Assembly (NCBI GenBank): GCA_022496805.1
Contig: CM040088.1
Span: 22,103,001 to 22,167,000, forward strand
Origin: Pohlia nutans
Taxonomy: Eukaryota; Streptophyta; Bryopsida; Bryales; Mniaceae
Length of the DNA stretch: 64,000 bases
Direction of reading: 5' to 3'
Positions within the stretch are counted from its first letter, which is position 1. Each line of letters begins with the position of its first letter. The translations under genes and the position numbers were made by a program. The notes below the pieces were generated by a model, which was not told the origin of the DNA, made no database searches, and worked only from the letters and a program-made list of their open reading frames with translations. Positions 2,339-46,663 of this stretch are shown here, piece by piece.

Positions 2339-5300
2339 ATGGCAGAAGACTCGAAGGAGGAATGCAGGAAGTTGCATGCGGTCATAGTGCCGTTTCCAGC
2401 GCAAGGGCATATCAATCCAATGCTGCAGCTCGCGCGCCAGCTCGTTACAGTTCATGGCTTCAGAGTCACTTTTGTGAACACCACTCAGAACCTGCATAAT
2501 CGCTGCATCAAATCCTCGCAAACTGCCACAACCAGGTGATGATCGAGCTCCTTCAATGTATCCTCCAAATCCAATTTTGTGTAATCATTCTCGGTTGCTT
2601 ATGTACTAAGTTAGAGGATACTATTTGCTTCAGTTTAAGCATTTTAACACATGTAGGAGTACGATTTCTGGGACACTTTTAAGCATTTTAACACATGTAG
2701 GAGTACGATTTTTGGGACACTTTTAAGCATTTTAACATATGTAGGAGTACGATTTTTGGAAGATCAGTATAGAGCTGTGGAGAGATCGCTTTTGGGTACA
2801 AGAGCCAGATCAAACTTTTATGCAACTTCAAAGTAGAAGGTTGTAAATCACTATGTATAGTAGACAACCCCATTTAAAGATTAATAACCATATACATTTA
2901 GCTATCAACCAAGTGTATTATTAAATATGTGGTTGGTAATATGGGTCAGTGTAGGTGGTGAAATTATGTTTCTAATGGTTTTAGTATCCACTACCCCAGG
3001 TCTTGACTAATAACTGTATTTACGGGTGCTTTAGACACGAACAAAACTTTGGTCAAGAATGGAGCTTGAAGGCCCGTAGATTGGTTCAACTTCAAAATTG
3101 GGAAACAGAAAACTCACCTCTATTGGCGTAGGGTTGTGTTTTGGTTTGGCTCAAGATGTATCAACTCTCTTGAGCTAGGAACCATGTTTGAAGCAAAGAT
3201 CAATGGAAATACTGAGCAGCGTCTTCTGGAGTCAAAGTCTAAATTGCTCCTGAGTCTGCTGTTAGAAAGGATAACATCATGCTTAGAGCCTGTTTCCACT
3301 GGAGCCTGGAGGGGTCCAGGTCTGGACTTCCAGGCTCCATTACCCCTAAAGGACCATAAGGCCACCAGGTGGCTCCTGTTTTTTTCAGTGATTTTGAGTC
3401 GGTTTTATGTAGATTCCTTTTTGTTAATTTTATTTTTATTTTTAATTCAACATATGTAATATTCTTCACTGATTCTAGTGATATAAAATTTGGTCCCATT
3501 CAAATTATAATTTTCACAATATGATTGTTTAAACTTGTCATTTTAAAACTATGAATCCTTGGTCCTTTAGGGGTTAACGCAAAACTTGAACTGCAGACCT
3601 GGAGGTACGGAACTGGAGGTACTGATACTTTCTAAAATGTACCTACTGGAAGGATTTACGGAATTTTTCGACCTGCTGCCCGTAGGAGCCCTCCAGTTCC
3701 AGTTTCCAATGCTATGTAAACTATGAGTCATACTAATGGTAGGAGGGCGAGCAAGGTGTTGATATGAGCTAATCCGGGCTGGGGAATGAAATGCACATAA
3801 CAGGTGGGACTCGGGAATAAAGTTTGTGGTGCTTCCAGACGCACCGGCCGTGTTCCAAATGTCGAATACTGTTGAGCTGGAGCAGTTTCTGAAAGCATTG
3901 AAGGACATGGGGCCCAAATTTGAGGCCCAGTTTGAGGAGCTCCTGGCAGAGTCGCCCATCACGTGCTTGATCCGGGACTACATTATGTCATGCGTGCACA
4001 AGTCAGCCAGAAAGTACGGCATTCCAGTGGCAGCTTTGGCCACCATGTCTGCAGTGGCCACCCACTGCTGCTTCCATTACCAGAGCTTTATCAGCCAAGG
4101 CCTGCTCCCCTTGCCAGCTCCCCCAGCTGGCGAGAATGAGAGTAAATCACAGGGTAGCAGTAATACATGGTTGGACCATATGCAAACATTCCCCAAGCCG
4201 CCTCGGAGTGCAGCCGAAGATGCAGCGCTGAAGCGAATCGTTGGCCACGTCGTTGCTGGTTTGTCACCGAACCTCACGGTTGCCGAGCTTCCCTCCAGCT
4301 TCTTAACCCACAGCCAGATGCCAAATCTTGTCCAATCCATGCGTTCCTTGTATAATGAGCTTCTCCCTGATTGCCACTGCCTGCTTCTCAACACCTTCCA
4401 TGAGCTGGAATCGGCAGTCCTTCATGGTATGGACGAAAACCCTGTTATTCTGCCAGTTGGTCCCCTTGTTTTCCTCAACCGGGAAGGCCCTGCAGGCTTG
4501 CAACAGGTGAGTCTTTGACTTGATTTGTTCAAGAATGGTTATGTTTGATTTTTACAACTAATCTGGTAGTCCATTCCAAACTGATTGCTACATTTGTTAG
4601 CGATGTTATCCCCTAAACGTCGGGCCTATGACCATGGAATCTTGCTTTTCCTGTCACACTCACTTTTGGCACTATAAATAAGATAAGAATTCAACTTTAT
4701 ATTTTTTAGTAGATGAAGCCATGTGTCTATGAACTTTTCATAAATTTTGGTGAAGATTTGAAATTACTATGATTTTTTGAAGTGATTGTAAAGAAAATTT
4801 ATATCAATTACAAAATGTACTCAGAACTTCCGAATTTTTTTACCTAAGGTGTAAATTACAATGAAGAATAGTACAAGAAATGAAAATCATCTGTGTATCT
4901 AAATTTAGAATAATATCCATTGAACTTGTAACTTTAATAAAACACTCAATTCTTAGAGTTTTCCAAGAATTCAAAATGGAGTTGAAACTAGACTTGGTAA
5001 GCTTCATTTTGTTAGTTAAGCTCAAATGCAATAGAACTCATTTTCACGGCCCAAATTTAGTTTAAGCAAGAAAAAACAAAAAGATACACTACATGGTGAA
5101 CCGTTTTTACTACTCTTTATGTAGTTAGGACCCCATGTAAAATCCAAAGATAGCTTAAATGACCTTAATTTAACTTGAAGAGGTAGCATGACCAACAAAG
5201 AGCCTTCTTGAAAAGAATTTGATGAAAAACCCTTCGTCTACTCTGTGATACTTCAGTTCACTTTGGATGAGTTACATGCATATGTCAATATATGGCTGCA

Positions 5301-6994
5301 ACGACGTTTTAGTGTTAAGGGAGTACACCAATTATTGCCATTACTGTGGGTCACAGAATTAGTGTGAGATTTCCTACCAAGTTCTCAATTAGAGTGAGAC
5401 TTTACACACAATCCTCACTACTCACTCTGCGAATTCTCAATTACTGTCACACTTTGTTCTAATACCACAATTACTGTGACTCACAGTAATGGCAATAATT
5501 GGTGTAGCAATAAGAACTCTAAATGTTGCTTGACAAGCTGTAAATGTTCCTAAATGTTCCTTGACAAGCTGTAACGTTGCTTGAGTTACTCCCCAACGTT
5601 GCTAACAAACGTAGCAACTGCCAGATCAGAGCGACTGAAGTCAATAAGAAATTGAAAGTCATGGTCGTCTTCAGGGCTGTAAAGTTGACCTCTTCACCGA
5701 CTCACTTGTCTGCAGCGAAATTCTTTTGGGCTAATTATCACCAAATTGCTACATAAAATTTCGGCTGACTAATTAGTACAAAGATTTTTTCCAAAAATAA
5801 GAAGGAATAATAGCCAGATTCCCTACATGATGTGTAGCCTCTATAACACCTAAGTAGCACATGTATATTTACCTATATATTAGTATGACAAGAGCATCCA
5901 AGGAGCATGGATTGCGCATCAAAAAGTAGCGAAAATGCTAAGAAAATCAACTCTGTGTGGCTCTGTGTGGCAGGAAAAGGAGCCTGTACTGGGTGATGCT
6001 CTGTGTCCATTACGGGAAGAAGATCCGGCAACATTACAGTGGCTGGAAGGTCAGCAACCAGCGTCAGTAATGTACGTGTCGTTCGGCAGCCTGGCTACTG
6101 TACCAGTTGCGCAGCTGCTGGAGATTGCGCATGGGCTGGAGGCCAGTGAGCACCCGTTTCTGTGGGTCATCCGGGAAGACTTGGTGGACGGGGAGCAGGG
6201 CGAGTTCGCCGCCTTTTTGGCAGGTTTTCGAGAGGCCACCAAAGACAGGAGTTACATAGCGCCATGGGTGTCCCAGACAGCCGTGCTCTCGCACGCCGCA
6301 GTGGGAGCGTTTCTCACGCATTGTGGATGGAATTCCACGCTGGAGAGCATCTCCGCTGGAGTACCCCTGGTCGCGTTGCCAGTCTTCGCTGAGCAGGGGG
6401 TGAATGCATTCTATGTCACGCAGGTCAGTGATTTTCTTTTTATCAGGAGCAGTGATTTTATTTTATTTTTTTGTCAAGAGACAGTTTAACATTTTTGCTA
6501 CTTTTCCATGGCTTGGAGAGCAATCCAGGCTCCTTGGATGCTCTTTTCATATTAACATATAGGTAATATCAGGGTAATACACATGTGCTACCTACTCAGG
6601 CAATACCTAGGTTTAAAGAGGCTACACATCGTAGAAAAGCTGGCTATTATTCTTTTCTTTTCTTTTTCAAAATTCCTTTGTATCAATTAGTCAGCCAAAT
6701 TTTATGTAGCAATTTGGCTAAAATTGAATCACTGTGCAGGTTTGGGGCAATGGGGTGCGGCTGGAGCGTGACGAGCAGGCTGAGGTGGTGACGAGACAGG
6801 AGGTGGAGAGCAAGGTGAGAAGTGTGCTGGCTGTCGATGCAAATGTGAAGACCAGAGCTCGAGAGTTGCAATCGGCAGCACGGAAGGCTGTCTTGCCTGG
6901 AGGATCCTCCCAGCGAGCCATGGCCGAGTTTGTGGAGCGGATTGTGGCTTGTTCTCGTGAATCTGCCCTTGTGAAATCTGCAGAAATCATGTAG
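2339..6994 (+). CDS. Family-1 UDP-glycosyltransferase, 4 exons
   Basis: Transfers a sugar from a UDP-sugar to a small acceptor in the cytosol; the acceptor cannot be predicted. Exons 2339-2535, 3804-4506, 5974-6423 and 6740-6994 join in frame to 534 residues, a little over the usual 450-500. The start is the ATG beginning MAEDSKEE, giving the expected short lead into [11 protein letters not shown], with the catalytic His at about residue 24. The plant PSPG box runs from Trp398 ([10 protein letters not shown]) through [10 protein letters not shown] to a final EQ near 441; a last Gln usually goes with UDP-glucose. Intron 1 holds a 44-bp tandem repeat and a TTAA element; intron 2 holds two small elements; intron 3 is entirely an H1 hAT-like element, with splice sites in the duplicated target. 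The frame is intact throughout, so I see no sign of a pseudogene. Confidence 0.93.
2636..2760 (+). repeat. 44-bp direct tandem repeat, nearly three copies
   Basis: Successive copies begin at 2636, 2680 and 2724 with TAAGCATTTTAACACATGTA and run through GGAGTACGATTT.TGGGACAC. It lies in UGT intron 1. Differences between copies are one or two bases, so the duplication is fairly recent. Confidence 0.9.
3343..3573. mobile_element. TTAA-type element, family P1, in UGT intron 1
   Basis: Left end TTA-CCCCTAAAGGACCATAAG; right end CTTGGTCCTTTAGGGG-TTAA (3574-3577). The interior (TTCACTGATTCTAGTGATATAAAATTTGG) matches copies at 45825-46663 and 52139-52368. The left TTAA has lost one A. Length 231 bp, no coding capacity. 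Confidence 0.65.
5326..5504. mobile_element. TA-flanked palindromic MITE, 179 bp, in UGT intron 2
   Basis: TA then CACCAATTATTGCCATTACT at the left, with the exact inverted copy ending in TA at 5505-5506 at the right. TA target duplication and near-perfect inverted ends fit a Tc1/mariner (Stowaway-like) MITE. Confidence 0.65.
5713..5970 (-). mobile_element. H1 hAT-like element at the 3' end of UGT intron 2
   Basis: In reverse orientation this carries the H1 landmarks GCTAATTATCACCAAATTGC, TACAAAGATTTTTT, GGAATAATAGCCAG, CCTATATATTAGTATGA and GAGCATCCAAGGAGC. It ends a few bases before the acceptor of UGT exon 3 (5974). The sequence CTTGTCTGCAG just before it (5705-5715) would itself be a usable acceptor, so the element may have displaced the original splice site. 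Confidence 0.6.
6424..6739 (+). mobile_element. H1 hAT-like element that forms the whole of UGT intron 3
   Basis: The intron starts GT-CAGTGATTTTC and ends AATCACTG-TGCAG, so the hAT-type ends CAGTG/CACTG sit just inside the splice sites. GCAGGT occurs immediately before the left end and again at the right end. The donor GT comes from the first copy and the acceptor AG from the second. The interior matches H1 copies at 29089-29392 and 52748-53048. A second CAGTGATTTTA about 24 bp in is a partial duplication of the left end. Confidence 0.75.
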
Positions 6995-7261: not shown

Positions 7262-7430
7262 CAGGGAACCTTGACTGATTCACTGCCAAGTAAATGGTAC
7301 AAAAATGATGGTGAATTTGTGGTGAACACTTGCTAAATTGAGCAACCACTTCAATTTAGCAAGTGTTCACCACGAATTCACCATCATTTTTGTACCATTT
7401 ACTACCTGGTGAATGTGTCAAGGTGCCCTG
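7262..7430. repeat. Palindromic element with 52-bp hairpin arms
   Basis: Arms 7290-7341 and 7351-7402 are complementary at 51 of 52 positions around a 9-base loop. The outer parts (CAGGGAACCTTGAC / GTCAAGGTGCCCTG) continue the symmetry. A degenerate half copy occurs at about 32350-32425 in SCO1 intron 1. The ends fit a hAT-like palindromic MITE; transcribed, it would form a very stable hairpin. Confidence 0.7.
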
Positions 7431-7508: not shown

Positions 7509-9136
7509 CAGTGACTGCCAAAACTGAGTACGAACACAGCTTACTGAAATTTAACAAACAATGTAGGGAAATTGGATGCGTCAAAAATGAAACCATAAAT
7601 TGCATAGGATTACCATTGCAATCAGTCATACTTCCATGGGGATTGAGGTCTATTACACACATGTATGCATGTTAAAAAAAAAGTAAAGTGAAGTTCAGTC
7701 CAAAACTCAGTTTTGCTCACATTAGCTGGAACAAAGTTAAAAATTTGTCCACCTACCCTTAGCAACTATAACAGCTGCAATGCGCTTAAGCATGCTTTTA
7801 TACAAGTTCTTACACTCACTGGGAGTAATTGAAGCCCAACAATCCTCAACACGCTCCCACAATTCTAACATTCCTTTGGGAGGTCTCTCATATTGGTTGA
7901 GTCGACGTTTTAAAGTTGCCCACAAATGTTCGATCGGATTCAAGTCTGGAGATTGCGCCGGCCACTTCAAAAGAGTGAATTCTTGCGAATTCAGCCAACG
8001 GCGCACACTCTTGGATGTATGCTTTGGGTCATTATCCTGTTGAAAAATCAAATTGGCAGGATCTAGATTGTATGTATGCAGTGTATGAACCAGTTCTCGC
8101 TCTAAAATTTCTCTATACATGTACTGATCCATTCTTCCCTCAATCCTACACATCATACCAAGGCCACTCGGAGTCATGCAACCCCACATCATCACTCCCC
8201 CACCTCCAAAGTTGACAGTTTGTTGCACCATTCCAGCACTTCTACTCTGTCCATCACGAAACCAACACCAACTGCGACCATCAGAGTAAAATCGGTTGAT
8301 TTTTGTTTCATCAGAAAATACTACACAATCCCAATCATCATCAGTCCAATGGCAATGACGTCTAGCAAATTCTAATTGTCCTTTAATTTGAAGAAGTGTG
8401 AGCTTTGGTTTCTTTTGCTTCACTTCACATTTCAAACCTGCTTTTCGTAACATTCTCCTCACAGTACTATCACTCATACCAACATGAAGCTCCTCTCAAG
8501 TAATTTCCAACTTTGTGTGCAGTTTCTAAGCCACCTATAGTGATTTCTCTCACACAAGCCCTGCGATCAACTGCACTGTACACCTATGGCCTGCCACCAA
8601 AACTGCGATTCACATCACTCAACTCACTCAAATGTTGCTTACGAAATTGTGCAACCCAACTTTGGGATACTTGTAAGTCTCTAGCAACATTTCTAGTACT
8701 TTCACCCCTCCTCAACTTTTCTAAAGTAGCTTCTTCTATCTGCTTTCTATCAACAACAGAGAGAGACCTTAATGAAACCATTTTGCTCAATTTGCATACA
8801 TGATGTGCACTGAATAGGGACACAATTATAAATGTGAAGGCCAAGAACATGCCCATCCAAAAAAATAGACCCAGAAAACCACTTGTGCATGTCAAATTTG
8901 TAGCATTCACCGCGTAATCCAAGTGTGAGCATAACTGAGTTTTAGAGCTAATTTACTTTGATCTATATCTTTCTCAAATCATTTTGCATTGCTGGACTTG
9001 TAATTTGGTAGCCACATCATTTACTTGAATGTATACTTGTGCCGTCAACTGATTTGGCATTAAATGCAGTAAATTATAAAATATGAATGGCTAAAGGTAG
9101 ACTAAGCTATTTCGTACTCAGTTTTGACAGTCACTG
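7509..9136 (-). mobile_element. Tc1-type transposon (DD34E), 1,628 bp, near complete
   Basis: TA (7507-7508) then CAGTGACTGCCAAAACTGAG at the left; the inverted copy ends CTCAGTTTTGACAGTCACTG followed by TA (9137-9138) at the right. A second, inner repeat of the AAAACT(C/G)AGT core lies about 190 bp in from each end (7700-7727 and 8925-8949), the IR/DR layout of Sleeping Beauty-like Tc1 elements. Length, TA duplication and transposase type all agree. The transposase is interrupted, so this copy is not autonomous. Confidence 0.92.
7737..8781 (-). pseudogene. Tc1 transposase, one stop codon and one frameshift
   Basis: The protein would start at 8781 (MVSLRSLSVVDRK) with a paired helix-turn-helix region (ESTRNVARDLQVSQSWVAQF). 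An in-frame TAG lies at 8584-8586 just after FGGRP. A frame change follows at about 8493-8498, consistent with two missing bases. From 8477 to the stop at 7737 the DDE catalytic half is one open frame: FSDETKI with the first Asp, GGGGVMMWG, FQQDNDPKHTS with the second Asp, and SPDLNPIEHLW with the Glu. Exactly 34 residues separate the second Asp from the Glu, the DD34E spacing of Tc1. All three catalytic residues are intact. Damage is light, so activity ended recently or a different copy supplied the enzyme. Confidence 0.92.
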
Positions 9137-10715: not shown

Positions 10716-11369
10716 CCCCTAAATGCTCATAGCCCTCTCTAAATTGGGCAGTTTTGCAAAGATGCATTATAAAATGTATTTAAGAGGAATATTTTGAACC
10801 TGATGTACGAATAAATATTGTACATTATGAATTTTAGATTCTATTCATGTGGTTAGATCTGTGATTGCTATCACCAATATTTTTGTATAAACTTTGAAAC
10901 TTAAATTTCAAAAATATTTTGTAATTCGATTACGAACAAGACATTGACAATTTGTAGATGAAATTTGTTGTGATGGGTTGAGATGTAATATTCTGAGTGT
11001 TGTGATTTTTGGACATTTTTTGGTATCTTAACCCCTAAAGGCCCAACCAAGCCAAAACGGCTTGGTTAACAGTGTATTTTGACAACCTTGGGCCTTTAGG
11101 GGTTAATTCAATGAGTTGACTTTTTCAAAAGCACTTTTGAACACATTTGAACTAAGATTTTAGAAATTTTTGGTGAATTACTGCATCATGAAATGAGACA
11201 TAAATATTTCACAAATCATCTCCTTTCTAATCAGATCACATATGCGTGAAGCTAAATTTCCATAAAATCAATAGTAAATTATACAGACTACAAAAAGTGT
11301 ATGACGGATGAAAAAAATTGGATGAAATTTGTACATCATCCAAAGAATGAACGCATGGGCAGTTCGGGG
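10716..11369 (+). mobile_element. P2 TTAA-flanked element with a 71-bp element nested inside
   Basis: TTAA (10712-10715) CCCCTAAATGC at the left; GGGG (11366-11369) TTAA (11370-11373) at the right. Relatives lie at about 46060-46632 and, reversed, at about 16026-16580, sharing GCAAAGATGCATTATA and the TATCACCAATA region. Within it, 11032-11102 is a second TTAA-flanked palindrome (CCCCTAAAGGCCCAACC / GGGCCTTTAGGGG). Another CCCCTAAAG end starts at 11374, sharing the right TTAA. Confidence 0.6.
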
Positions 11370-15445: not shown

Positions 15446-17046
15446 TAGGTGGAGTGCTGATTATATGAACATAATTCCAATTGCATTGGAAAGAAGACTT
15501 GTTTACCTATGACATTGTATTTTTTTATTTTGAAAAAAAATTATTTGTTTGGGCCTAGGCAACCGGAAAAATGGGCAATGATCAAAAAATGGTTTTTTGT
15601 GAGCTTAGGGGTTAAGGTTAGTTTCAACACTTATATATTGAAATAGTTTAATTTTAGAATTCAGACTCTACCAAATGCCGTTTTTTAATTTTCAAAATTT
15701 TGGAAAATTTACTAATTATGGTGTTTCAGATTTCACGGGGAACTAAAGACATTCAAATCATTTTTCTTTGTTTTTCTTTGTTCTATAACTTCTAAAATGA
15801 GTTTTTATGCCAATATTATTAAATTCTGACAAACATTGTTCTTCAATAGTCCCTTACTCAGCTCTCTTGGCCTTGGGAGAACTTGTGGGAACTTTTTTTT
15901 ATCATTGAGGGGTCACAAGTTCCATACCCTTTGGTGGTGTATGGCCTTGCTTTAGATTATTCTCCAACTCACTATAGATTAGTTTTGAAGTCTTTTTGAA
16001 CCAGAAACAAGTCGAAGGTGAGTTTAATCCCTAACTACCCAACCGTCCATTTTTTGGACAATGTAAAGATTTCATTTACGTTTTCTCATCTGTCATGCAC
16101 TTTTTGCAAGGAAAAATATAATACAAAATTTTACGACAAGATAGCTTCATGCATATGAGATCCGATTTGAAAAGAGATGATTTGTGAAATTTTATGCCTC
16201 TTTCATGTTGTAGTGATTCATTGATGATTTGAGTCTAAATGTGCTCTTGAAAAAATAAACTCATAAAATTAAGCAAGCAAAAAATATCCAAAAATCACTA
16301 CACTTAGAATATTACATTTCAACCCATCACAACAAATTTCACTCACACATTGTCAATATCTTATTTGTAATTGAATTACAAAAGAATTTCAAATTTCAAA
16401 TTTCAAATTTTATACAAAAATATTGGTGATAGCAATCGTAGATCTAACCGTATGCAGAGAATCTAAAATTCATAATGTACAACTTTTATTCATACATCAA
16501 GTTCAAAATATCCCTCTCCCTCTTAGTTGCATTTTATAATGCATCTTTGCAAAACTGCCAAATTTGGAGTGGGGTGGGGGTATATAGTGATGAACAAAAC
16601 TGAGTATTGATTTGAAACTTTTTCATTCAAATAACCATACCATGAGCATCAATGGGAAAAGTCCAAAAGTAGATATGAAAAAATTGTAGTATGCGACATA
16701 TAACCCATTACTATGGAAGTTTGAAGAAAAACTCAATTGCGATTTGAAAATAAATGAATTTCAAAGTTAGCTATGTCTAAAATTTGATTTTGTGCACTAT
16801 AATTTGAAACTACTTTAAATTTTGTCAATTTTTCTTAGAGTTTCAAAAAAACTTTTTGTACCTCGGCATGTTGGTATACATCATTTTTAGATTGTTGTAC
16901 ACAAAAATTGAAGGAAGTTGACATTTTATAGAATTTAAAATATTCACAATTTGATAAACATGCAAATGATGTTGGTTCTCACGACATTTGAATATTTTGT
17001 TGGAATTGAGAGCGTGGGACTGCGTTGGCCATTGTAGAGAGTGCAT

Positions 17047-18840: not shown

Positions 18841-18988
18841 CTTGGGTGATACTTCGATGATACTTGGGTGATACTTGGGTGATACTTGGGTGATATTGTG
18901 GTGATACTTGGGTGATACTTGGGTGATATTGTGGTGATATTGTGGTGATACTTGGGTGATACTTGGGTGATACTTGGATGATACTTGT
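18841..18988 (+). repeat. 11-bp minisatellite upstream of MED7
   Basis: About 13 head-to-tail copies of TGATACTTGGG, with a second variant, TGATATTGTGG, interspersed in a patterned way. It begins where the foldback arm ends and stops at the foldback terminus GTCACTGTA. It lies roughly 270-420 bp upstream of the MED7 start codon, so it is probably in the promoter or 5' leader. Confidence 0.9.
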
Positions 18989-24970: not shown

Positions 24971-26773
24971 TCAAGCAAGACCGCCATTGGCTCGAATCAC
25001 CTGTGCATTCAGCCACTCTCCTTCCTTACTGACAACAAAGAGAACAATGTCAGCGATTTCTTTGGGCAGGCCAATGCGTTCGAGTGGCGGACCGGAGCTT
25101 TGTTGCTCGATCATCTCCTTGCTTTTGCCTCTGTAGAAAAACTCAGTCGCCACGGGCCCGGGGGCCACGCAGTTGGCAGTAATTTGCCTGCCTCGGAGCT
25201 CCTTGGCCAGTATCTTGGTGAAGCTTTCCACGGCCGCTTTGCTCGCCGCGTAACAACTGTACCCGGGAGTATTGGCCGCCACAATGGTGGTGGTGATATT
25301 GACTATCCTGCCATCCGCATTTGAGGGTATCCGTAACGCGCCTTCTTTGGAGCACATAAACATGCCTCGCGTATTCACACTGAATACGTGGTCCCATTCT
25401 TCCACTGTGGTGTTGACAAGGGGAGGGTACGACTCCGGGCCCGTGCCACGCCAATGCAAGTTGACACCTGAGCAATGGAATTTTTTTTCGTTAGGAGACA
25501 GAAATTGCTACTTTTCCATGGCTTGAAGAGTAATCCACGATAGCATACTAGAGCACAGAGAGGACCACTTCAAAATAGAAATGAAAATTACAGTATGGCA
25601 TTTCCTCCTTCATGGTATGCACATGATGGCATTCCCTCATAAGTTGGAAAAGAAGATCCAACTCAAGATTCCCTTGGAAAAGGGAAAATGGGTACTCCCT
25701 CTCTCTGCTCTACATAACATAATAGAGCAATTCATGAAGTCCCCCTTTTCTATAATTGCAGGTTACCTGCCTCCGGGGTCATTTTCTTCACATGTGAGCA
25801 TGGGCGGTGTTAACTTCCAACAAGTGAATTACCATGGGAACCTACAAAAATAGGAGAACTGAAGTTCTAGGCATGGCTCTTGAAAGGAGAACCACCTTCT
25901 GCCAGTGGTACAAAGACCTATTGTAGAAGGTGAAAACTGAATCTCATTAAAAGATGCTCATTTGATCCAGTTCCAAAAGGGGGACATCCTGAACTGCTCT
26001 ATTATGTTATGTAGTTTGCTATGTCCTCTTTTCATATTAATATATACGCAATTAATATCAGGATAATACTCATGTACTACCCAAGTGCTACTTAACCCTT
26101 AAAGGTTTTAGGGCATAGTAGATACGTTGCCATATATTTAACATTTGTTGTAAGTAGAAAGTTCCAAATTGAGATCCCAATAGCTTTTAAGACCATGTAG
26201 ACATGAATTTTAACTTCACTTTTGATATGAAACTTATAGGAGGTGTAGAACCATTCCAAATACAATGAAATACAGCCGTATAATACTGGCCGGAATGGCC
26301 AATCTGGACCTTTAAGGGTTAAGCAATAATTAGGTTTAAAGAGGCTACACATCGTAGAAAAGCTGGCTATTATTCTTTCTTCTTCTTTTTCAAAAATCCT
26401 TTGTATCAATTAGCCAGCCCAATTTTCATGTAGAAATTTGGCGATAATTAGCAACAGAAAGAAAAATCACTTCACCTGCGTTGTTGACGACGATGTGGAT
26501 CTGACCGAAGGCCTCCTCTGCACTGTCGAACAGGCTCTTCACATCTTTCTCGACGCTCACATCCGTCTTCACAGCTTTCGCTTTCCCCAGTCCCCGCCCT
26601 GAAACTTCCGACACCAACTGCAACGCTTTCTCCTCGTTGCTCAAGTACGTGAACACTACGTTTGCCCCTTGTCTCGTAAACGTTAGCACTATCTCTCTTC
26701 CTATCCCATCGCTACCTCCTGTCACTACTGCCACTTTGTTCCGCAGGCTTAGAATATTGCTGGAATCAGCCAT
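24971..26773 (-). CDS. SDR, plant NADPH-dependent aldehyde reductase type
   Basis: A classical short-chain dehydrogenase that would use NAD(P)H to reduce a carbonyl compound; in plants this subgroup detoxifies reactive aldehydes. Exons 26773-26476 and 25467-24971 give 264 residues. The Rossmann motif is TGGSDGIG, followed by NNAG at the end of exon 1. The active site YAASK lies in GYSCYAASKAAVESF. Then come ITANCVAPGPVATEFFYRGK and the C-terminal WLNAQVIRANGG, typical of the subgroup. The stretch where the catalytic Ser is expected reads VNITTTIV, so Thr may replace it. I chose the ATG at 26773 (MADSSNILSL); an in-frame ATG at 26824 adds 17 residues. The single intron (25468-26475) is an H1 transposon carrying two later insertions. 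No targeting peptide is obvious, so it is probably cytosolic. Confidence 0.92.
25712..26012. mobile_element. Inverted-repeat element nested in the SDR intron
   Basis: ACATAACATAATAGAGCA at 25712 recurs inverted as TGCTCTATTATGTTATGT ending at 26012; AAGTCCCCCTTTT and AAAAGGGGGACATC continue the symmetry. It interrupts the H1 sequence between GAGTAATCCA and CTCTTTTCATATTAA. Confidence 0.6.
26096..26318. mobile_element. TTAA-flanked element nested in the H1 copy
   Basis: TTAA (26092-26095) CCCTTAAAGGTTTTAGGG at the left; GGACCTTTAAGGG TTAA (26319-26322) at the right. Removing it and one TTAA restores H1 sequence (GTGCTACTTA-GCAAT...GGTTTAAAGAGG). This dates it after the H1 insertion and directly supports TTAA duplication. 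Confidence 0.8.
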
Positions 26774-27608: not shown

Positions 27609-27916
27609 CAGTGATCCCAAAACTGGCTAAAATTAGCTGGATTTCTACCCAAAAAATGGGGTTGCTAAACATACAAAAGAAAATGAAAAAAAAAATGAAA
27701 TGTAGCAAGAATTTTCATCATAATATAAATATGTAGTAACTTCATGAGGTGATATCCGCGGATATCATCATGGTATCACCTTAATATATCAAGGGTATTG
27801 CCGGATATTATAGAGGTATCGTGCATATTGTATGCACTGGATAGCAAAAGTAGATACCATTTATGTGGGAGGTCGCATAATGTTCTAAATGTCATAAAGT
27901 GGTTCTGGGATCACTG
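27609..27916. mobile_element. Intact hAT-type MITE, 308 bp, perfect 8-bp duplication
   Basis: CAGTGATCCCAAAAC at the left and GTTCTGGGATCACTG at the right (one mismatch). CTGATGAA occurs exactly at 27601-27608 and 27917-27924. These are textbook hAT ends. The first bases resemble H1 (CAGTGAT, GGCTAAAATTAGC) but the interior differs, so it is a sister family. Confidence 0.88.
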
Positions 27917-29088: not shown

Positions 29089-29392
29089 TAGTGATATTTT
29101 TTTGTCAGGAGACAATTTAGCTACTTTTCCATGGCTTGAAGAGCAATCCAAGGTCCTTGGATGCTCTTTTCAAGTTAATATATAGGTAATATCAGGGTAA
29201 TACACATGTGCTACCTAGGTGCTACTTAGGCAATACCTCGGTGATACGTAGGTTTAAAGAGGGTACACATCTAGACTCCATGTAGGATATCTGGCTATTC
29301 CTTCCTTTTTTTTTCAAAAATTCTTTGTATCAATTAGCGGACCAAATTTTATGTAGCAATTTGGCTAAAATTAGCAACAAAAAAAATCACTG
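29089..29392 (+). mobile_element. H1 hAT-like element, intergenic reference copy, 304 bp
   Basis: TAGTGATATTTTT at the left, AAAAAATCACTG at the right. Flanks GTTATCAA and ATTATCAC match at 6 of 8 positions. It contains the full H1 interior: TACTTTTCCATGGCTTGAAG, CCTTGGATGCTC, a run of short (G/C)(G/T)(G/C)(A/T)ATAC-type repeats, and TTTGTATCAATTAG. It shows the family outside any gene. Confidence 0.75.
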
Positions 29393-29911
29393 ATTATCAC
29401 ACACTCATACTCAGCGTTTTTTGGGAGCAGTAACCCCTTCTCTGTCCTCATGAGGGACGTGGCTACACAGATCCAAATCTGTCAGAGAGTGCAATACATT
29501 GCCCAAAAAACCCTGCTCATACTCTGTCTCCTCAAAGACCGAGTCTTCAGATTACTACGTCGCACCTGCCATAGCCAGCATGATTGTACAGCTCCATGCA
29601 GCGCTAGCTTGCAATTTCAGTAAAGCTCTTGAAGCTTGTAGCTACATAGATCTATTTTTTAATTGAGAGATTTCCTCTCTTATACCTTCTTTGACACCTC
29701 ACCAAAGGATGAAATATTCCTTCCAAGGACTCTTGAGAAAAAATATAAATTAACATCTCAAGGACTGGATAACCGTATTTGTTTTTATTTATTTTTACTC
29801 AGCAAAAAACACTGAGCTTCTTAAAACAATGAACTAACAGGTTGTTAGAGAGTTTCCTGATATATCACACTCTGAGGCAGTTGTCTGTAGAACTGGCTAG
29901 CGCTTTAAGAC

Positions 29912-33252: not shown

Positions 33253-36185
33253 TTAATTGCAACAATGACGCTCAAGAGCTCCTTCAATGCACCAATTTGT
33301 AACTAAACCAATTGCACCAATTTGTACAAAATAAAATTTGTGCTCGCATACTTCCACCTCAGAGCTCAATAGTTTGCAATCGGAAAAAATGGAATTCGGA
33401 GATGATGCTGAATGAACATCATGCCAACAAATGGAGAAGCAAGAAATTTACAAATGGAAATTCCATCGTGCCTTGAAGCGCACTCCCAACGAGAGAGACG
33501 ACCTTCTTCCGCAAGGTCTACAGAATGGATGAATGACTACTGGACCGAGACCTCTGTAATATCACATACCGGATGGGCGTGATAATATGGAATTTTGTAA
33601 CATTGTGTTGGGATTGTAAGAGTCAAGAAGGTGGTTTAAATTATTATTATTTTAATTGTCAAACTACTTGTTATTACTTTATATGCAATTTCTTATTACT
33701 TTACATGCAATTTCTTGTATAAAATAGCTAGGTCCATGCCAAACATAAGATTTGAGGTTGTTAAAAGTACTCCCATATATAGAACCATATATCAAGAGAA
33801 TAAAATTGAAGTGATAATATGGTTGTAAGTATTTTTGAAATTGTGGTATTTATTTTAAAGTCATAGTTTTTGGTCTTTTTGCACTAACTCTAAAACATCA
33901 ATCTTAAATAAACTATTACTTGGATTTACCATGTAAATGATAGAGGGATAAGGGCAAAACCTAGATGTGTTATAAAATGTTACTTTTGCAACTTTGATGA
34001 AGTTTGGTTCAAAAGAGAAAATGAGAAGCATGGCATTTAGTAATTATCTATACAATTAAACTTTCAAAAAATGCTTTAGATACTCATTTAATGAATTTAA
34101 AAGCATTTATTGTTGAATATTTACCAAAATTACAATTTTATTTTTAGAATTTGAAATTTGATATGATTGGTTAAAACTAGAAATTCTATTCTAAAATGGT
34201 CGATGGCAAAATTTTCAAAGGAAATGACATCATCACTTTCTTGAAATAGTAACTTTTATAACACTACTAAACTAAAAACTAATGCTAGCACAATTTGACA
34301 TTGTCATAAATCTCATAATTTAATTCAATCACATCAAATTTCAAATTAAAATATTTATTTTTCATATTTGTAATATATACTTATGGTTTTCTTTTCAAAA
34401 ATATTTAATACTAAATCTAAAATATTTTTTGAAAGTCCAAACATATAAATGGCAAGCCCCAATTCCTTACAATAATTATTTTTACGACTCAAGTCAAAAA
34501 CAATTATAAAAAACACATATACCGGTAATTGCAATTCTGATTTAAAATCCTTAATCCTCAAGTGGTATTTTGTATTAGAGAGAAATGTGGAAAAAAATCT
34601 TATTTTACAATAGAACTCTAAACTTTGGTTATTTGTTATAAATTTTGGGCCATTTTAAAGCATTTTCGACTAAACAACGACGACCAAGAAACTCAATTTT
34701 TGCCAAACAAACTTCATTTTTTCAAAATCTTTAAATATTTGTTCGTGGAGAGGCAACCCTACTATGGTAGTACGGTAGTTTGACTATTCTACACATGGGG
34801 AGGTCACTCCATTGTAAAGTTGAACAACCATTGTAAAGTTGAAATGTAAAAGTTGAAAGTTAATATCACGTCACATTGTAAAGTTGAACTGTAAAAGTTA
34901 ATGTGACGTGATATTATTTGTCCATCCTCCACTTGTAGTGATGTGCATTATATGTCTAATTATTATTTAGACTACAGTTCTGTTCATTCTTATACTCTTA
35001 CAACAACAGGAATGGATGTTTCTAGAAGTACTTATGTGTGCAAACTGTTTCAGTGATTGACTTTAGACGTCCTCTGAAATTGCAATAAAAATTAATTTCT
35101 TCCACAGTCGCTTTATAGTGTGTTTAGGGTTTAGGGTAACAACAGATTGTTTTCAGTGTGATTTCACAGCAGTTTGCTTTTAGTTTGCTTTCCCAATCAT
35201 TATCACCTCTTTATTCCGCAGTAGTGAGGTTTACCCTAAACAGGGTAAAGCCATAGGAGACCGTGTCCCACTCCATGCGCTCTGACTGAGGTGTGATTAC
35301 TTTAGTAGTTGCGCTCTACCACGCAAGTTCATCCACCGTGGATGACAAATCATATATAATATTATAAACGGCTTCGGGTTCTGACACATGAGCTTCATTC
35401 CAAGTTTCCTAATTCCTTGTTTTGATGTTCTCTTCTTGTTTTGTCCCACTCGCCTCACTATTCATAATGTTTGTATTATTGTTTGCAGTATGTTTTGGGA
35501 ACCTAAACCCTAACCCGTAGGGTTGATAAAATTTGCCACCTCTTTCTGTCATCCATGGATTTATGAATCTGTCCTAGACTTTGCTTTGTCCCATTCTATA
35601 GTGCAATGAGAGTGGGCTTTCAATAATGCCAAGTAAACAAAGAATAAGTGAAAATCCGCCACCCACACTCATCTCGATGTTTTAATCAGGGAGTAGCTCT
35701 TATCTATATCATCGATGTTGCTTAAAATCATCACCACCTACGTGGTATTAGAGACAGTAAGATATCACACGTACTAAAAACTAGCATGAATATGTAGGTG
35801 AACTTTATTCTTCAATAAATATTTACCTAACACATATTAAATCATGTGAACATGGTATAGATAATCCACATTTATGACTGGATAAGATAATACCCCTCAA
35901 TCCATTTTTAAGAAGTCCTACCTCTAATGTTGGATTACTGCATGCGAACAAGATCATTGGCACGTACAAATGTAGAAACAAGAATGATTGATGTCAAGTA
36001 AATTATCGAGGCTTACACAAGGGCTTACATTGTTGTTGTAATTTTTTGTTGGTGACATACTCTGTGTAGAACGAGTATGATTTTGAACCCACTCTATTTG
36101 ATATGAGGCTTGGAAATCCATGTCACTCTCAATCGCAATGTCCACCCTTTTACAGTAAAATGCGCTATAAGTACCTTTCACAGTT

Positions 36186-36305
36186 CACTAGTACAAAAGG
36201 TGGCACTCCCCATGAAGATGCCCAGACAAAATCACTGTGCATGCATGGAATTGGGCACCACTTGCCTGGGCAGCTCCCTCAATAGTGCCACCTTTTCTAC
36301 TAGTG
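36186..36305. mobile_element. CACTA-like MITE, 120 bp
   Basis: CACTAGTACAAAAGGTGGCA at the left and the inverse (TGCCACCTTTTCTACTAGTG) at the right with one mismatch. GTT is duplicated on both sides (36183-36185 and 36306-36308), matching the 3-bp duplication of CACTA transposons. The terminus resembles common plant CACTA ends. Confidence 0.8.
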
Positions 36306-36569
36306 GTTGGCGCTCATTCGGCTACACATTATATTCAATGGGTTCTTTCTTGAGGCGTTGGACGAAGGGAGTTTCACTACTGTGCCATTGGTTTTTTCAA
36401 CAAAGTCAACATGATCTATTTGGTTGTTGTTCTTTGAAAAAGTTAAAAAAACGTTTTCTTCAATTCATTATTTCTATGGTATATATATATAAATTAAATG
36501 TAAGACATTTATACATAGTGACCACAAAGTGACACAAATAGGATGATTTACTTAGTGAATACAAGGATG

Positions 36570-36675
36570 CACCAATGGCCCTATGTCCTGTGGACACTGG
36601 CTCATTGTCAAGACGAATAGACACTTTATTCACGCCGGCCTCGAAAGAGGACCGGAGTTTCTATCTATCTATCTG
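36570..36675 (+). repeat. Second copy of the CTAT-tailed repeat
   Basis: Contains CACTTTATTCACGCCGGCCT, GAAAGAGGACCGGAGTTT and a CTATCTATCTATC tail, matching 15245-15445. GGCCTCGAAAGAGGACCGG can form a short stem just before the tail. Confidence 0.4.
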
Positions 36676-39600
36676 AATACAAGGAGTTAAGGGTTTTGAG
36701 GTTCAAAATGATTGGAATCTCTTCTAATGGTTTGTTTTCCCCAATTGCTATGACCACTCATTGCCATGGTATACCATTCTTTTCTCTATTCTCCATGCAT
36801 AGCAAGCCATGGTGCTAATTGTACAAAGCCATCAAATTCTCTAGTGTAGGCTTCAAAGAAACACTTATAGTGAGGAATCAACACATTTATTCTGTCTACA
36901 CCGTCCCACATGCTCGCATCACAGACATGACATTTGTTTGAGATTTTGTGGTGCCAGAACAGAAAAGAAAAATTGTGCATGATGATTTTTCGGAGTCTGC
37001 CAATGATAATTAATGCATCTTTTTGTACTCCTTTTTAGCATTGAGTCTTTCTTCTGAGTCTACAATTGTACTATGTATCTAATATTTGTTAGCAATGTTT
37101 GCATGGTCTCTTAATTATTTTCAGTTGACCTTTTATTGCAATGAGTTACAGGTGATAGATGTTGTAATACCAAAAAAAGGTGTTGTTTTTTACACCTAGT
37201 TACAGTAGAAAATATGTTCTAAAGATTTGGGCCTTAACTAGTTACATAATTCAAGAGTTTTGTAGAAACAATCAATGTGAAAATGAAAATAATTAAAACA
37301 TCTTTTTATCCTAGAAATGTAGAAACTTCTCTAAAACCAAAGGAAGAATGACATTTCAGTTGAAGAATTAACAAGTCGAACATATCAATGGACATATTTA
37401 GATCAAAGTAGAATTGAGGGTTGAAGTCTTTAATTCGACGACGGTGGAATTGGTGAGACTTTCAAAGGACATTCTTGAACTTTAGAAGCCACGATTGTCC
37501 CTAGATCTTCGTTGCAGTCTTCATCTTTTGAATCAATTGTCATTGTGGTTGGGCAAGATTTTCAGTTTGTAGGATTTAATATTTTTCTGATCTCGGTTCT
37601 GATTTGTTGTCTACAAGCTACAACATCTTCTTTCCTCTTCCAACCCCGCTTTTGATGAAGTTCTTCTACATTTGGCATGGGATTCTTTTAACAACCAAGT
37701 ACTACCTCTGCGGTCACTATAGGCAAAACTTTTTCCTTTTTTTTCACCCTTCACCACATCAACCACCTTTAGTTTAGCCTTCGCACGTCCCCGACCCCTC
37801 TTATCAGGCTCCTCCACTACATTCTCCTTAGTTTTGTTTTGAACAACAATTAATTTTGACGTTGTTCTCATCTGCTTTAAGGTCATAGCATTTGGGTTTT
37901 TTTTCTAAAAACATAGTTATGGAAGATCTTTGATTTTAGCGACGTAATCATGTTTGCTTTAGCATACTGTTACAACAGACAAATAAAATCAATGCCTCAA
38001 ACAACGATTCAACAAATGAAACAAAAGCGGTACAAATGGGTTTTTGTTCACCACAACAATTGCATTTGACAAAGACCTCGACAAAGACACTGCACACAAC
38101 AATATCAACAAAGAAATTACTAGAAACAAAGTATTGAATACAAAAAAAAATACTTGTAGTGAACATGCAGACTTCACGGATTTTCTTCATAGTTTCTAAA
38201 AGAGGTTTATAGAAGTTTGAGTGGACTTCCATGGACTTTTGTTAAATGAACTATCTTTTTATTGTGGAAAGGTGAAGTAGTGGGACATGGAGAATATTCT
38301 TAAGGCCCTCTTCCAAGGCATTCCTCTCACACCAACAAAACACTAAACTCGCATGTCATTTGTATTGACATTGTTTAAACAAAAGACAGGGACATAGCCT
38401 AGTCTTTAGAAGTTGTTGATGGTGTTTTCATTGCAATAATATTTCTGAATGCAAACCTAAGGCTTGTTGGAATTTGTATCTGTCTTTGAATATAAATACA
38501 AAATATTTTCATAGTATACGACCATCATTCTACTCTAGATTTCTTGGAGATTGATTCTGGACATGAACTATGGTTATTCATATTACAAAGACTTACAGTA
38601 TTCCCGATTGTGCTTCTTGCAACACAATCACGCATTGTGCAACGTTAGTGAGAATTAGATTTTGACACACTCATCCAATTTGGTTTGTTGGACCCTCTAT
38701 AACTACCGTGATTGTCAATTGTGTAATTGCCTTCTACAAATTCCATGTGCAGTGACAAGATCTTTGCATTGAATGTTTATGGAAGGGGTTATATTCTTCT
38801 TGTGAGCATATTTCTTTATGGAAACTAATCTTGTAGAAACTTTTGTGCAAATATCGTGGTATATGATATTTAAAGCAAAGTTACATAATCTTTATTGATT
38901 TAAATATACATTTTTTAAAGGAAATTATAAAATTCAAGAGATTTCAATTGCCTCAGTGGTCCAAGAAGAGATGTATTAGAGTGCAAGCACCAAATCAAGA
39001 GCCAAGGGCACACACTTATGTAGTCATGAACCGGTCCTTATCGGGACCCATTGGAGGACAACATAAGGGACGAAACCTACATGGCAATCAATGAGTAGTG
39101 TTATTTTGAACCTCATCCCCTCTCTCGGACTCGGAATTTGTTCCCACCCAGGTCATCGTCTTCTTTGTCCTGGTAACTGAGAAGGATGTTCACGTGCAAA
39201 AGAATTTAGGGTTTAGAAGGAAAAGTTTGTCTCGGTCATGAAAACATCGTGTGCCTGCAAAAGAAAAGAGTAGAGACACTTGAAAAAGAGCTTCAAATGT
39301 TTCAATCTCAAATTGTTGAATTTTTCGTGATAGAGAGAGGTTTTAGCTACGATGGCTTGAATTCAAAGGATTCAAAGGACATAGCCATTGTTACGCAGGC
39401 TGACATTGAAGAGATATTCGGCAAGGGTTTTAGTATACTAAGTTATTTTGAGAGTTGTGACTAAGGAGTTACAAATTCTCTTTTCAGACTTTGTATGTCA
39501 TCAAAATGAAAAGTATTCTTTATATTAAATAATCAAAATGCACTATCTAGTCTTTTCAATACTCAACAAAATTAAGTTCCGTAAGTCCCAATTACTACAC

Positions 39601-41297: not shown

Positions 41298-41996
41298 TTG
41301 GTGCGCAGAGTCCTATCGTGTGCATTTGGCAGGGATTTGTTGATCGATAGGGATTCTTCACTCGCTGGATGCGCAAGCTCCAAAATGTGACAGATCAAGA
41401 GGACGCTTGTGCGCAGAGTGCATAATTTATGCAACCGATAAAGAGGAAGTGGTTCTTTCGATGTAGAGCAGAGCAGAGCGGACGTTGGATGAATGTTTTA
41501 GGGTAAGTGGTGTGTCTGTGATATGTCTGTAAATGTCTGTCGTATTTTCGCCCCCACTCCACTCGGTCTTTTCTCTAAATGCACCTTGTTTGCAATGAAA
41601 TACTGTTTCATTTGTGTCAAAAAATAAACAAATGCACCTTGTTTTTGTTGGTTTAGGGTCAAAAGGTTTGGGGTGCCGTGAGCCTCACTGCGCGCGTCGT
41701 GGACGACACGTTCCCCGTTTGGTTTGTGACGAGGAGTCATGCGCTTCTTCCCCAGGCTGATATGGAACCTCCGGTGCGTCTGTTTCTCACGTTGCGTATT
41801 TTGGATTCCTCACCGCAGAAACCCCCGAAACCCTAAACTGCATTCCCGCAACGAGTTCAACTCTCTTGGAATTTCATTGGAATTAGATGAATCCACATTA
41901 GGGCTTTAGGGAGTCACTGGGAAGAACGTCGAGCGCGCTTCGTTTTTTATTTTGCATGCAGGAAATGGTGTTCTTTGTTTTAGGAATTTTAAACTT

Positions 41997-44150
41997 ATGG
42001 AAGGAGGTATGCCGGCGATGGTGCAGAATGTAGGAGGAAGTGATAGCGGAGTTGGAGATGGAAGGAATGAGTTGAACGAGCGGCAGTTGTCGGAGAAGTT
42101 AGAGAAGAGTGAGGCTGGGAGGAAGAAGTTGCGGCAGGCAATTGGATTGCTGAAGGAGAAGCTGGATGCTACGTCTCAGGCTTTGGAAGTGAACGAGGCG
42201 CTTCGGCAGGAGGTGGAGAAGGAGCGGCTGAATGTCGATACGGAACGGAAGAGGGCGGAGGAGGAGAAAGCCCTGCGAGAGAAACTGGAGGAGGAGAATG
42301 TTTCCATCAAGGAGCAGTTCGTCGGTGTTTTGCAGAGGTTGGATTCTTTGGAGAGCAGCTACAAGGCCGAATTTGGCCGGATTCGTTCGGAAGTGAAGGA
42401 AGGCATTGGTGCGGCTTTGCAAGCTGTGGAAGCGACCCAGGGTTTATACCAGTCTTTGGAACGGAGTCTTCACGCCAAGGTGAATGGAGCTGTCCAATCC
42501 TCATCGAAGGCTTTGGCCATGGCGCAGAGTGGGCAAGCTGCAACTTCTAGGGCACAGGCCGCGGCCCTCGCAGCGCAATCTTTGGCCAAAGCTATGCAGA
42601 AGGAGGTCCTGGTGGTGTCATCACAGGTCGTCACGCTGCAAAAACAGGCGTCCAATCTTAGTGCAATGGAGGCTTCGTTGCAGCAAGAGCCGCAACTCAA
42701 AGGTCCATGTACTCCTCTCAACAGTCCGGATGCTGGAGAATCCAATGTTTCTCTGGCTGTTCCGAAGGAGAAAGTTTCCATTGACGCCGCATGTCCGAAT
42801 CAAGGGACGGTACTCAGTAAGACGACACAGAAAAGCAATGATGAAGGAGATATGCTAAATATGTTGGTTGCATCCACCGACAAATCTCGAAGCAATCCGA
42901 TGTGTTGTTCTAGCAATGGCTTACCTCCGCGAGGAGGAATGTTTCTAAGTAGGAACCAGATTCTTGATGGAGGGTTGAAGTCGCAGAGCACGATCCCACC
43001 GGTTCGTAAAAGTCCTAGAAAAGGCTCAGTAGAAATGGTAAGCAGGGATGAATCCACTCCAAGTCAACCTGGGAGTGTGCCCTTGAGGAAAGGGCCAGTG
43101 GCAATTATTACTGGACTTGACTCTATTTTGAGTCCTGCTGTGAGAGTTCCTGAAACTGCCACAAAATCCGCACCGTCTTTGTACATTACCTCGCCCAGTG
43201 CCAGGGCCACTGCTTTACCCAAACAAAGCGAAGTACAGCCTCAGAAGTTTGGAGATGCTTCCAGAGGACCGGGCAGTAGAGAGTGTTCCAACAAGCGCCC
43301 TGCTGTGAAGAGAGGTCAAGGGGATTCTAATGTTGCACGATCCAACGTCCAACAGAGTAAAAGCAGCACAGACATGGCTGGGAAGCAAATCACTTCTACA
43401 GCCGGGCTTCCTGCACGGACTGTAGCTTGTAGTACGGTTGAGGATGATGGTGATACTTTCTTGGAAGGAATGCCCCAGTTACATGGTAAGCCTTATCCCA
43501 GCTCGACAACTAAATTGTTGAAATCGGTAATGAAGATGTTTGAGAAGGAGGGCAGGAACCGTAAAAGTATGGAGGACAAACTCATGAAATTGCAAGCGGC
43601 ACTGGAAAGTCCTTGTGACTCTGGGCAAGTGGCACAAGTAGGCACGAAGCGGAAACGAGAGACAAGGAAAGAGAAGGGCGATGGGGCATTGGAGGAGAAG
43701 GGGAAGAAACGACACCGTCAGGGAAAAGAGTCTAAGAAACAAGCGGCGAACTTCTTCAGTCTTGATGACGCCGTTACCTCTCCAACTTGCCCCACTGAGG
43801 ACAAGCATCTTCTGCAGGAGAAAGAAGTGCAGCAGACTGATGTTCAGGCATCCGAAGACGGCGAACCTGCTCAGGACAGGCTTTCGGAGATGATATCTAG
43901 CCTTCAAGACAGGTGCAGAGGGGAAGGAATGTTTGAGTCGGCCGTAGATTGCCAGGTAAACAGAGATGCCCCTGGGGCTGAGGAATGCAAGGATGCTTAC
44001 AGTGATGTAGACATTTGCAATGACGATGTATCTAAAGATGAAACAGGTACAAACACAGATCTGGAGAGTACCGATGATGACTTGGGGGAAGATTGGTGGG
44101 CGAAAAAAGTGCTTCTATCACCAATTTCCAGTAACGATCTCATTTCCTAG
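41997..44150 (+). CDS. Unrecognised nuclear-type coiled-coil protein, 717 residues
   Basis: One long uninterrupted frame. I chose the ATG at 41997 (MEGGMPAMVQNV) because a probable acceptor, TGCATGCAG at 41959, lies between it and the in-frame ATG at 41952; GTAAGT at 41500 is a candidate donor for an intron in the leader. Residues of about 24-125 form a strong Glu/Lys/Leu coiled coil (LSEKLEKSEAGRKKLRQAIG and on). About 180-205 is Ala-rich and helical. A Ser/Pro-rich disordered middle follows. About 500-536 is a second short helix (LLKSVMKMFEKEGRNRKSM). About 548-590 is Lys/Arg-rich with KRKRETRKEKG and KKRHRQGKESKK, a likely bipartite nuclear signal. The C-terminus is acidic and ends DWWAKKVLLSPIS. 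No enzyme motif is visible; a chromosome, meiotic or RNA scaffold role is possible but unsupported. Confidence 0.85.
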   Translation: MEGGMPAMVQNVGGSDSGVGDGRNELNERQLSEKLEKSEAGRKKLRQAIGLLKEKLDATSQALEVNEALRQEVEKERLNVDTERKRAEEEKALREKLEEENVSIKEQFVGVLQRLDSLESSYKAEFGRIRSEVKEGIGAALQAVEATQGLYQSLERSLHAKVNGAVQSSSKALAMAQSGQAATSRAQAAALAAQSLAKAMQKEVLVVSSQVVTLQKQASNLSAMEASLQQEPQLKGPCTPLNSPDAGESNVSLAVPKEKVSIDAACPNQGTVLSKTTQKSNDEGDMLNMLVASTDKSRSNPMCCSSNGLPPRGGMFLSRNQILDGGLKSQSTIPPVRKSPRKGSVEMVSRDESTPSQPGSVPLRKGPVAIITGLDSILSPAVRVPETATKSAPSLYITSPSARATALPKQSEVQPQKFGDASRGPGSRECSNKRPAVKRGQGDSNVARSNVQQSKSSTDMAGKQITSTAGLPARTVACSTVEDDGDTFLEGMPQLHGKPYPSSTTKLLKSVMKMFEKEGRNRKSMEDKLMKLQAALESPCDSGQVAQVGTKRKRETRKEKGDGALEEKGKKRHRQGKESKKQAANFFSLDDAVTSPTCPTEDKHLLQEKEVQQTDVQASEDGEPAQDRLSEMISSLQDRCRGEGMFESAVDCQVNRDAPGAEECKDAYSDVDICNDDVSKDETGTNTDLESTDDDLGEDWWAKKVLLSPISSNDLIS

Positions 44151-45824: not shown

Positions 45825-46663
45825 CCCCTAAAGGACAATGAAGCCCAAATTGGGCCTTCATGATTGAATTGTTTTTTTTAAGGAGTTTTGAGAAGGTCGT
45901 ATGTGTGCTTTTCTTTGTTCAATTTTTTTTGTTGTTTGACAAGCACTTTTTTTGGTTCAATTTTCATGTTCATCATTGATTCTGGTGATATAAAATTTGG
46001 TCTTATTTGAACTATATTTTTCACAATGTGATCAATTGTGAAAAGTATAATTCAAATGAGACCAAATTTGTCATTTGCCTACAACCCTCCCTAGATTTGT
46101 AGAATTGCAAAGATGCATTACAGAATGCAACTAAGAGGGATATTTTGAACTTGATGTATGAATAAAAGTTGTACAGATAGAATTTTAGATTCTATCCATC
46201 TGGTTAGACCTGTGATTGCTATCACCAATAATTTTGTATAAAATTTGAAACTTGAAATTTAAAAATATTTTGTAATTTAATTATGAATAAGATATTGTCA
46301 ACTTGTAGATGAAATATGTTTTGATGGGTTGAAATGTAATACTCTACGTGTAGTGATTTCCGGAATTTTTTTGGTTGCATAATTATATGAGTTTATCATT
46401 TCAAAAGCACATTTAGACTAAAATCTTTGAAATTTTTGGTGAATCATTGCAACATGAAATGAAGCATAATTTTTTACAAATCATCCCCTTTCAAACCGGA
46501 TCACACGCATGAAGCTATCTTATCATGAAATTTTTGTAGATTTTTTTTTCCTTGCAAAAAGTTCATGATGGATGAGAAAACGTGGATGAAATTTGTACAT
46601 CGTCCAAAAAATGGACGGTTGGCAGTTAGGGGTTAAAATCATGAATCCTTGGTTCTTTAGGGG
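45825..46663 (+). mobile_element. P1 TTAA-type element with a P2 element inserted
   Basis: TTAA (45821-45824) CCCCTAAAGGACAATGAAGC at the left; ATGAATCCTTGGTTCTTTAGGGG at the right, TTAA lost. The interior from about 46060 to 46632 is a P2 copy (TTGCAAAGATGCATTACAG ... GGCAGTTAGGGG TTAA). A foldback around TTCACAATGTGATCAATTGT precedes it. Confidence 0.6.

Follow-up and report, generated by a model that had tools for sequence, protein, structure and literature searches.

The window, the whole 64-kb stretch of DNA analysed here, carries on its plus strand a predicted UGT gene (2339-6994) with exons at 2339-2535, 3804-4506, 5974-6423 and 6740-6994, an ATG at 2339 and a stop codon ending at 6994. 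The four joined exons form an open frame of 534 aa, and the UDPGT family (PF00201) was matched in exon 3 by Pfam. Intron 3 (6424-6739, plus strand; GTCAGTGATTTT...AATCACTGTGCAG) lies where the first-pass annotation of this DNA had placed it; it is a GT...AG intron of 316 nt in phase 0 between Q and V, and when it is retained the reading frame stops soon past the donor. That splicing would restore an uninterrupted exon, as was also claimed, agrees with the open frame and with the Q/V junction, which aligns without a gap to P0241 (YATQVWGNALRL; 73% identical across 85% of exons 3 and 4) and to moss UGTs, those of Ceratodon and Physcomitrium; all other junctions are frame-consistent. Moreover, AT content is 66% in the intron vs 42-43% in the exons, the donor reads GTCAGT, and a CTAAA, which is not a full CTRAY match, lies 18 nt before the last intron base.

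On the minus strand, a predicted SDR gene (24971-26773; PF00106, PF13561) consists of two exons encoding 264 aa, separated by a phase 1 intron of 1008 nt (25468-26475, minus strand). The minus-strand sequence around the splice sites is ...AACAACGCAG|GTGAAGTGATTTTT...CATTGCTCAG|GTGTCAACTTG..., from which joining of the exons yields NNAG/VNLHW. Among the relatives of this gene, P0001 (88% identity, 263 aa) has NNAGANLHW and P0002 (86%, 257 aa) has NNAGVNLHW, both being ungapped against the spliced SDR. Furthermore, P0003 (82%) crosses the intron site uninterrupted on a contig of 4,234 bases and may be a transcript or a pseudogene, and P0004 (92%) starts two codons beyond the site on a contig of 1,635 bases, as would be expected of an exon preceded by an intron. 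The SDR intron is also AT-rich (62% vs 45-48% in the exons), with a donor that reads GTGAAG and a CTAAC 23 nt before the last intron base.

Judged by similarity, both introns are made of one repeated element, H1, of which five copies (A-E) were recognized in the window, at pairwise identities of 74.2-89.2%, i.e., 11 to 26% divergence, the best value (89.2%) being reached over 268 aligned columns. Copy A (6426-6734, plus strand; ends CAGTGATTTT...AATCACTG) has the same orientation as the UGT gene and nearly fills its intron 3. Copy D (25473-26472, plus strand; ends CAATGGAATTTT...GAAAAATCACTT, termini CAATGG...TCACTT) lies antisense to the SDR gene and makes up the second intron; it is split by an insert of about 484 nt (25541-26024) and by a TTAA-flanked piggyBac-like MITE (26092-26322), both of which are nested in it and arrived later. 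Copy C (29089-29392, plus strand), with the termini TAGTGAT...ATCACTG (right end also written AATCACTG), is located outside the genes modelled here and is flanked by an 8-bp target duplication (GTTATCAA/ATTATCAC, 6/8) that contains no splice motif, so that the ends of the element are defined independently of the introns. In two further copies no clear target duplication was found: copy B (52745-53045, minus strand), the left end of which is uncertain, and the diverged copy E (5714-5949, minus strand), situated inside UGT intron 2 (4507-5973), whose acceptor follows at a distance of about 20 nt.

Members of the hAT superfamily have short terminal inverted repeats with a CA(G/A)NG consensus and make an 8-bp target duplication. 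Inverted repeats of this type were found in copies A, C, and D, and an 8-bp duplication flanks copy D (7/8, in register) and copy C (6/8). H1 therefore fits a non-autonomous hAT-type MITE of about 300 bp, with ends CAGTG...CACTG and an 8-bp target duplication, which would presumably have been moved by a hAT transposase. No hAT transposase domain was detected in the 19 open reading frames, out of 68 listed for the window, that were scanned with Pfam. A search with the H1 pattern gave 0 matches in collections of viral contigs and genome contigs; these two collections are not intended for plant sequences, so H1 cannot be called absent on this basis. Within the window, a 308-bp hAT-type MITE (27609-27916) with perfect 10-bp inverted ends (CAGTGATCCC, 10/10, starting CAGTGAT) and a perfect 8/8 duplication (CTGATGAA) was recognized as a distant relative, weakly similar to H1 (nhmmer E 2e-4 to the H1 profile).

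In the SDR gene the flanks of the element were read in exact register. The 8-mers at 25465-25472 (CACCTGAG, minus strand CTCAGGTG), which holds the minus-strand acceptor AG, and at 26473-26480 (CACCTGCG, minus strand CGCAGGTG), which holds the minus-strand donor GT, are identical at 7/8 positions (CGCAGGTG/CTCAGGTG), and contribute 3 + 5 bases to the intron. The UGT flanks are less regular. In the best register, the left copy of the duplication (6419-6426, plus strand; CGCAGGTC) supplies the donor GT and the right copy (6735-6742, plus strand; TGCAGGTT) the acceptor AG, and just 2 + 5 intron bases fall outside the ends of copy A. Measured from CAGTG/CACTG, the duplication matches at 2/8 positions, and at 6/8 after a shift of one base. 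Moreover, the left end of copy A is doubled (CAGTGATTTT occurs at both 6426 and 6450), and about 12 bases are missing near its right end. Consequently, the first-pass annotation needs some correction at this locus: it had the intron matching other H1 copies from end to end, and although nearly all of the intron is indeed H1, blastn within the window (best E 1e-77) covers at most intron bases 42-302, the doubled left end and the missing bases further weakening the statement; likewise, GCAGGT is present on both sides as reported, but one base out of register and partly as a splice consensus that any donor and acceptor share. A recent date for the intron gain, also proposed there, does not follow from the five copies, given their pairwise divergence of 11 to 26%.

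As a control, the same 8 positions were compared in nine other introns of the window, which matched at 4, 3, 4, 4, 2, 5, and 4 positions (gene at 61.0-63.8 kb), 4 (UGT intron 2), and 7 (UGT intron 1). In the gene at 61.0-63.8 kb, one of the seven junctions had two possible donors, one a lower-matching frame-consistent alternative, and one two candidates; where candidates competed, the one giving the expected protein was used. The exons of this gene were paired after the plant ABC1-kinase-like protein, as Pfam gave just a sub-threshold beta-lactamase match. UGT intron 1 (2536-3803; donor/acceptor ACCAGGTG/AACAGGTG) was considered as a further transposon-made intron and set aside, its inverted ends being unconvincing (4/12) and the intron giving no H1 match; thus, a high duplication match can occur without H1. 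For this reason target duplication was rejected as sole proof of insertion, since CAG|G(T) is common to donors and acceptors in any case and one control reached 7/8, and the UGT duplication alone proves little. Part of UGT intron 1 (3418-3577) recurs at 52215-52372.

The main support for an insertional origin is instead that the H1 ends, known from copy C, coincide in the DNA with the intron ends in two coding genes (UGT intron 3 and the SDR intron). We consider it very probable that insertion of H1 at CAG|GT in coding exons created both introns, which keeps the hAT-like insertion proposed by the first-pass annotation as the best reading, now on firmer ground because a second intron consists of the same element and has an 8-bp duplication in register. 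According to this proposal, a single insertion of H1 at CAG|GT in a coding exon would yield a spliceosomal intron at once, with ...CAG|GT supplied by the left copy of the target duplication and ...CAG|G by the right copy. The element itself would contribute the AT-rich body, donor positions +3 to +6, and, close to the acceptor, a motif resembling a branch point (CTAAA or CTAAC), which may serve as one. Splicing, predicted to take place in this plant, would then restore the exact pre-insertion exon; since the exon is rebuilt exactly, the protein would remain unchanged and the insertion could persist. In the window this would have happened at least twice, with H1 in sense in the UGT gene and in antisense in the SDR gene. 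Copy C has, on its reverse strand, a CTGAC at a distance comparable to that of CTAAA/CTAAC, a possible reason why H1 would be spliced in both orientations. Counting against the proposal are the UGT duplication, which is 6/8 and one base out of register, the doubled UGT left end, copies B and E, in which a clear duplication is missing, the 7/8 match of UGT intron 1, which is not an H1 copy, the incomplete agreement of CTAAA with CTRAY, and the negative Pfam result for a hAT transposase in 19 of the 68 listed open reading frames.

Among the alternatives, the one that survives best, though we regard it as improbable, is that each position already had an intron, which H1 invaded and which then lost sequence by deletion up to both splice sites. 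Copy E, inside the larger UGT intron 2, indicates that H1 insertion into introns does occur, and the 7/8 of UGT intron 1 that splice consensus alone may imitate a target duplication. However, in such a history four ends would have to be trimmed exactly, to 2, 5, 3, and 5 bases, and the 3 + 5 register of the SDR intron would be a coincidence. Since only 2 + 5 (UGT) and 3 + 5 (SDR) bases lie outside the element ends, there is no splice-competent older intron left to have been the host. If H1 is assumed to start only at its inner left end (6450), the leftover intron measures about 31 nt and the duplication drops to 4/8. Plant introns are not known to be so short.

Still less credit is given to the view that the gene models are wrong and nothing is spliced at these positions, the UGT or the SDR being a decayed gene broken by H1. 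The models were predicted from DNA sequence; nevertheless, the spliced UGT is fully open over 534 aa, the spliced SDR (264 aa) is 86-88% identical to full-length relatives with no frame break, and random insertion in a dead gene would not favor CAG|GT twice. Finally, copying of an H1-bearing intron to another gene through reverse splicing and recombination would explain why the UGT and SDR introns are alike in sequence over almost their full length, but it is barely credible: the shared H1 sequence runs with transcription in the UGT gene and against it in the SDR gene, and the ends and duplication of copy C, which lies outside the modelled genes, are of transposon type.

Regarding the host lineage, the SDR gene of the window forms a clade with P0001-P0004 (100/100) within a group of 16 sequences (100/97), whose named members are from Sphagnum and Ceratodon, with lycophyte, fern, liverwort, and seed-plant sequences falling outside. 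Similarly, the UGT gene and its two nearest sequences group with those of Ceratodon and Physcomitrium (15 sequences, 99/96). Both genes are thus likely of the moss lineage, an assignment limited to likely because neither tree includes algal sequences and paralogy is possible.

New introns derived from jumping elements are known from algae and fungi. In plants, the maize Ds element, a hAT transposon with an 8-bp duplication, is said to have been described by Giroux in 1994 and by Dennis in 1988 as lying in an exon and being removed by splicing. These Ds introns reportedly belong to laboratory mutant alleles, with imperfect or alternative splicing. In contrast, splicing of H1 would be neutral for the mRNA, both affected genes are intact, and the 11-26% divergence between the copies marks them as old. 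A model of intron gain by transposons at AGGT sites is set out in a review attributed to Yenerall and Zhou (PMC3443670). The review lists 35 events from Oryza, Drosophila, Oikopleura, and Zea, refers to maize Dissociation for the de novo creation of an intron, and raises the question of whether some transposon has a preference for making introns (PMC3443670). Two papers refer to maize Ds acting as an intron (PMC3443670; PMC3260210). The AGGT duplication of that model is the same as the one seen here; the events of the review are single (PMC3443670), whereas here one family would have acted twice within 64 kb. The suggestion of the first-pass annotation that intron gain of this kind had not been described for land plants was therefore too wide, since transposon-made introns of Zea and Oryza are listed in that review (PMC3443670).

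Introners, as elements that create introns in this way are called, are known from some algae and fungi, and the main screen reported none in land plants (Gozashti et al., 2022; PMC9860276). The screen gives 27,563 introner introns in 175 genomes, none of a land plant; of the 835 genomes of animals and land plants, those with introners belonged to just two animal groups. A family was accepted there when at least four similar introns occupied non-homologous positions, and some families, among introners with target duplications and inverted ends, draw both splice sites from the insertion site, either the duplicated target or the adjoining exon (Fig. 2E, Florenciella; PMC9860276). Like the introners of that screen, H1 is a short non-autonomous DNA element whose insertion would make an intron, and either orientation was allowed in their search; unlike them, its host is a land plant, and two introns are known here vs a family minimum of four (PMC9860276). 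In the open-licence PMC literature searched, transposon-made introns of land plants were, as far as found, reported only as isolated cases, so that this kind of event is already known, but no land-plant introner family with multiple copies was found there.

We lean, with moderate confidence, towards H1 being a bidirectional hAT-MITE introner family of a moss-lineage genome that takes its splice sites from its own target duplication and accounts for at least four introns, and probably for dozens or more. The count of H1-made introns is so far two in 64 kb, against the at least four that define a family in the main screen (PMC9860276). The origin of introns is a long-standing question, and land plants are rich in introns and in transposons, yet the main screen found no introners in them (PMC9860276). 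One MITE family with two introns in 64 kb would be a directly testable counterexample to that screen, and it suggests that, as long as both splice sites come from the target, the orientation of a symmetric element does not prevent its splicing.

A wider scan of the window for elements with an 8-bp duplication and inverted ends gave 82 matches, of which 43 passed a complexity filter and 11 were listed. One of the 11 listed of these 43 (35232-36695) has AGGT in both duplications and no other support. The Rfam and tRNA scans of the window gave 0 matches, and in a PDB sequence search one open reading frame had 0 matches and another a weak match to a carboxylesterase. A 104-bp element (29412-29515), 19 bases past H1 copy C, has CAGCGTTTTT/AAAAACCCTG as its inverted ends and is flanked by a perfect 8-bp duplication (CTCATACT), and an inverted-end element (ACACCAATTATTGCCATTACTGTG...CACAGTAATGGCAATAATTGGTGT) occupies about 5310-5510 within UGT intron 2. 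Just downstream of the UGT gene, pieces of a Tc1-like transposase (7737-8952, minus strand; DDE_3, HTH_Tnp_Tc3_2) include an open frame of 252 aa, and a large fold-back palindrome (ATGGTACAAAAATGATGGTGAATT... and its reverse complement; about 7290-7405) lies between the two. Elsewhere, a repeat family with at least three copies (16019-16552, 46105-46641, and 10733-11031) has 83-87% identity, and an open frame of 746 aa (41910-44150, plus strand) looks like a coiled coil, with no Pfam match at 0.001. Finally, tandem arrays were observed at 1929-2015, in 16-bp units (AGTGCCGCACTGCAAC), and at 18841-18987, in 11-bp units (CTTGGGTGATA).
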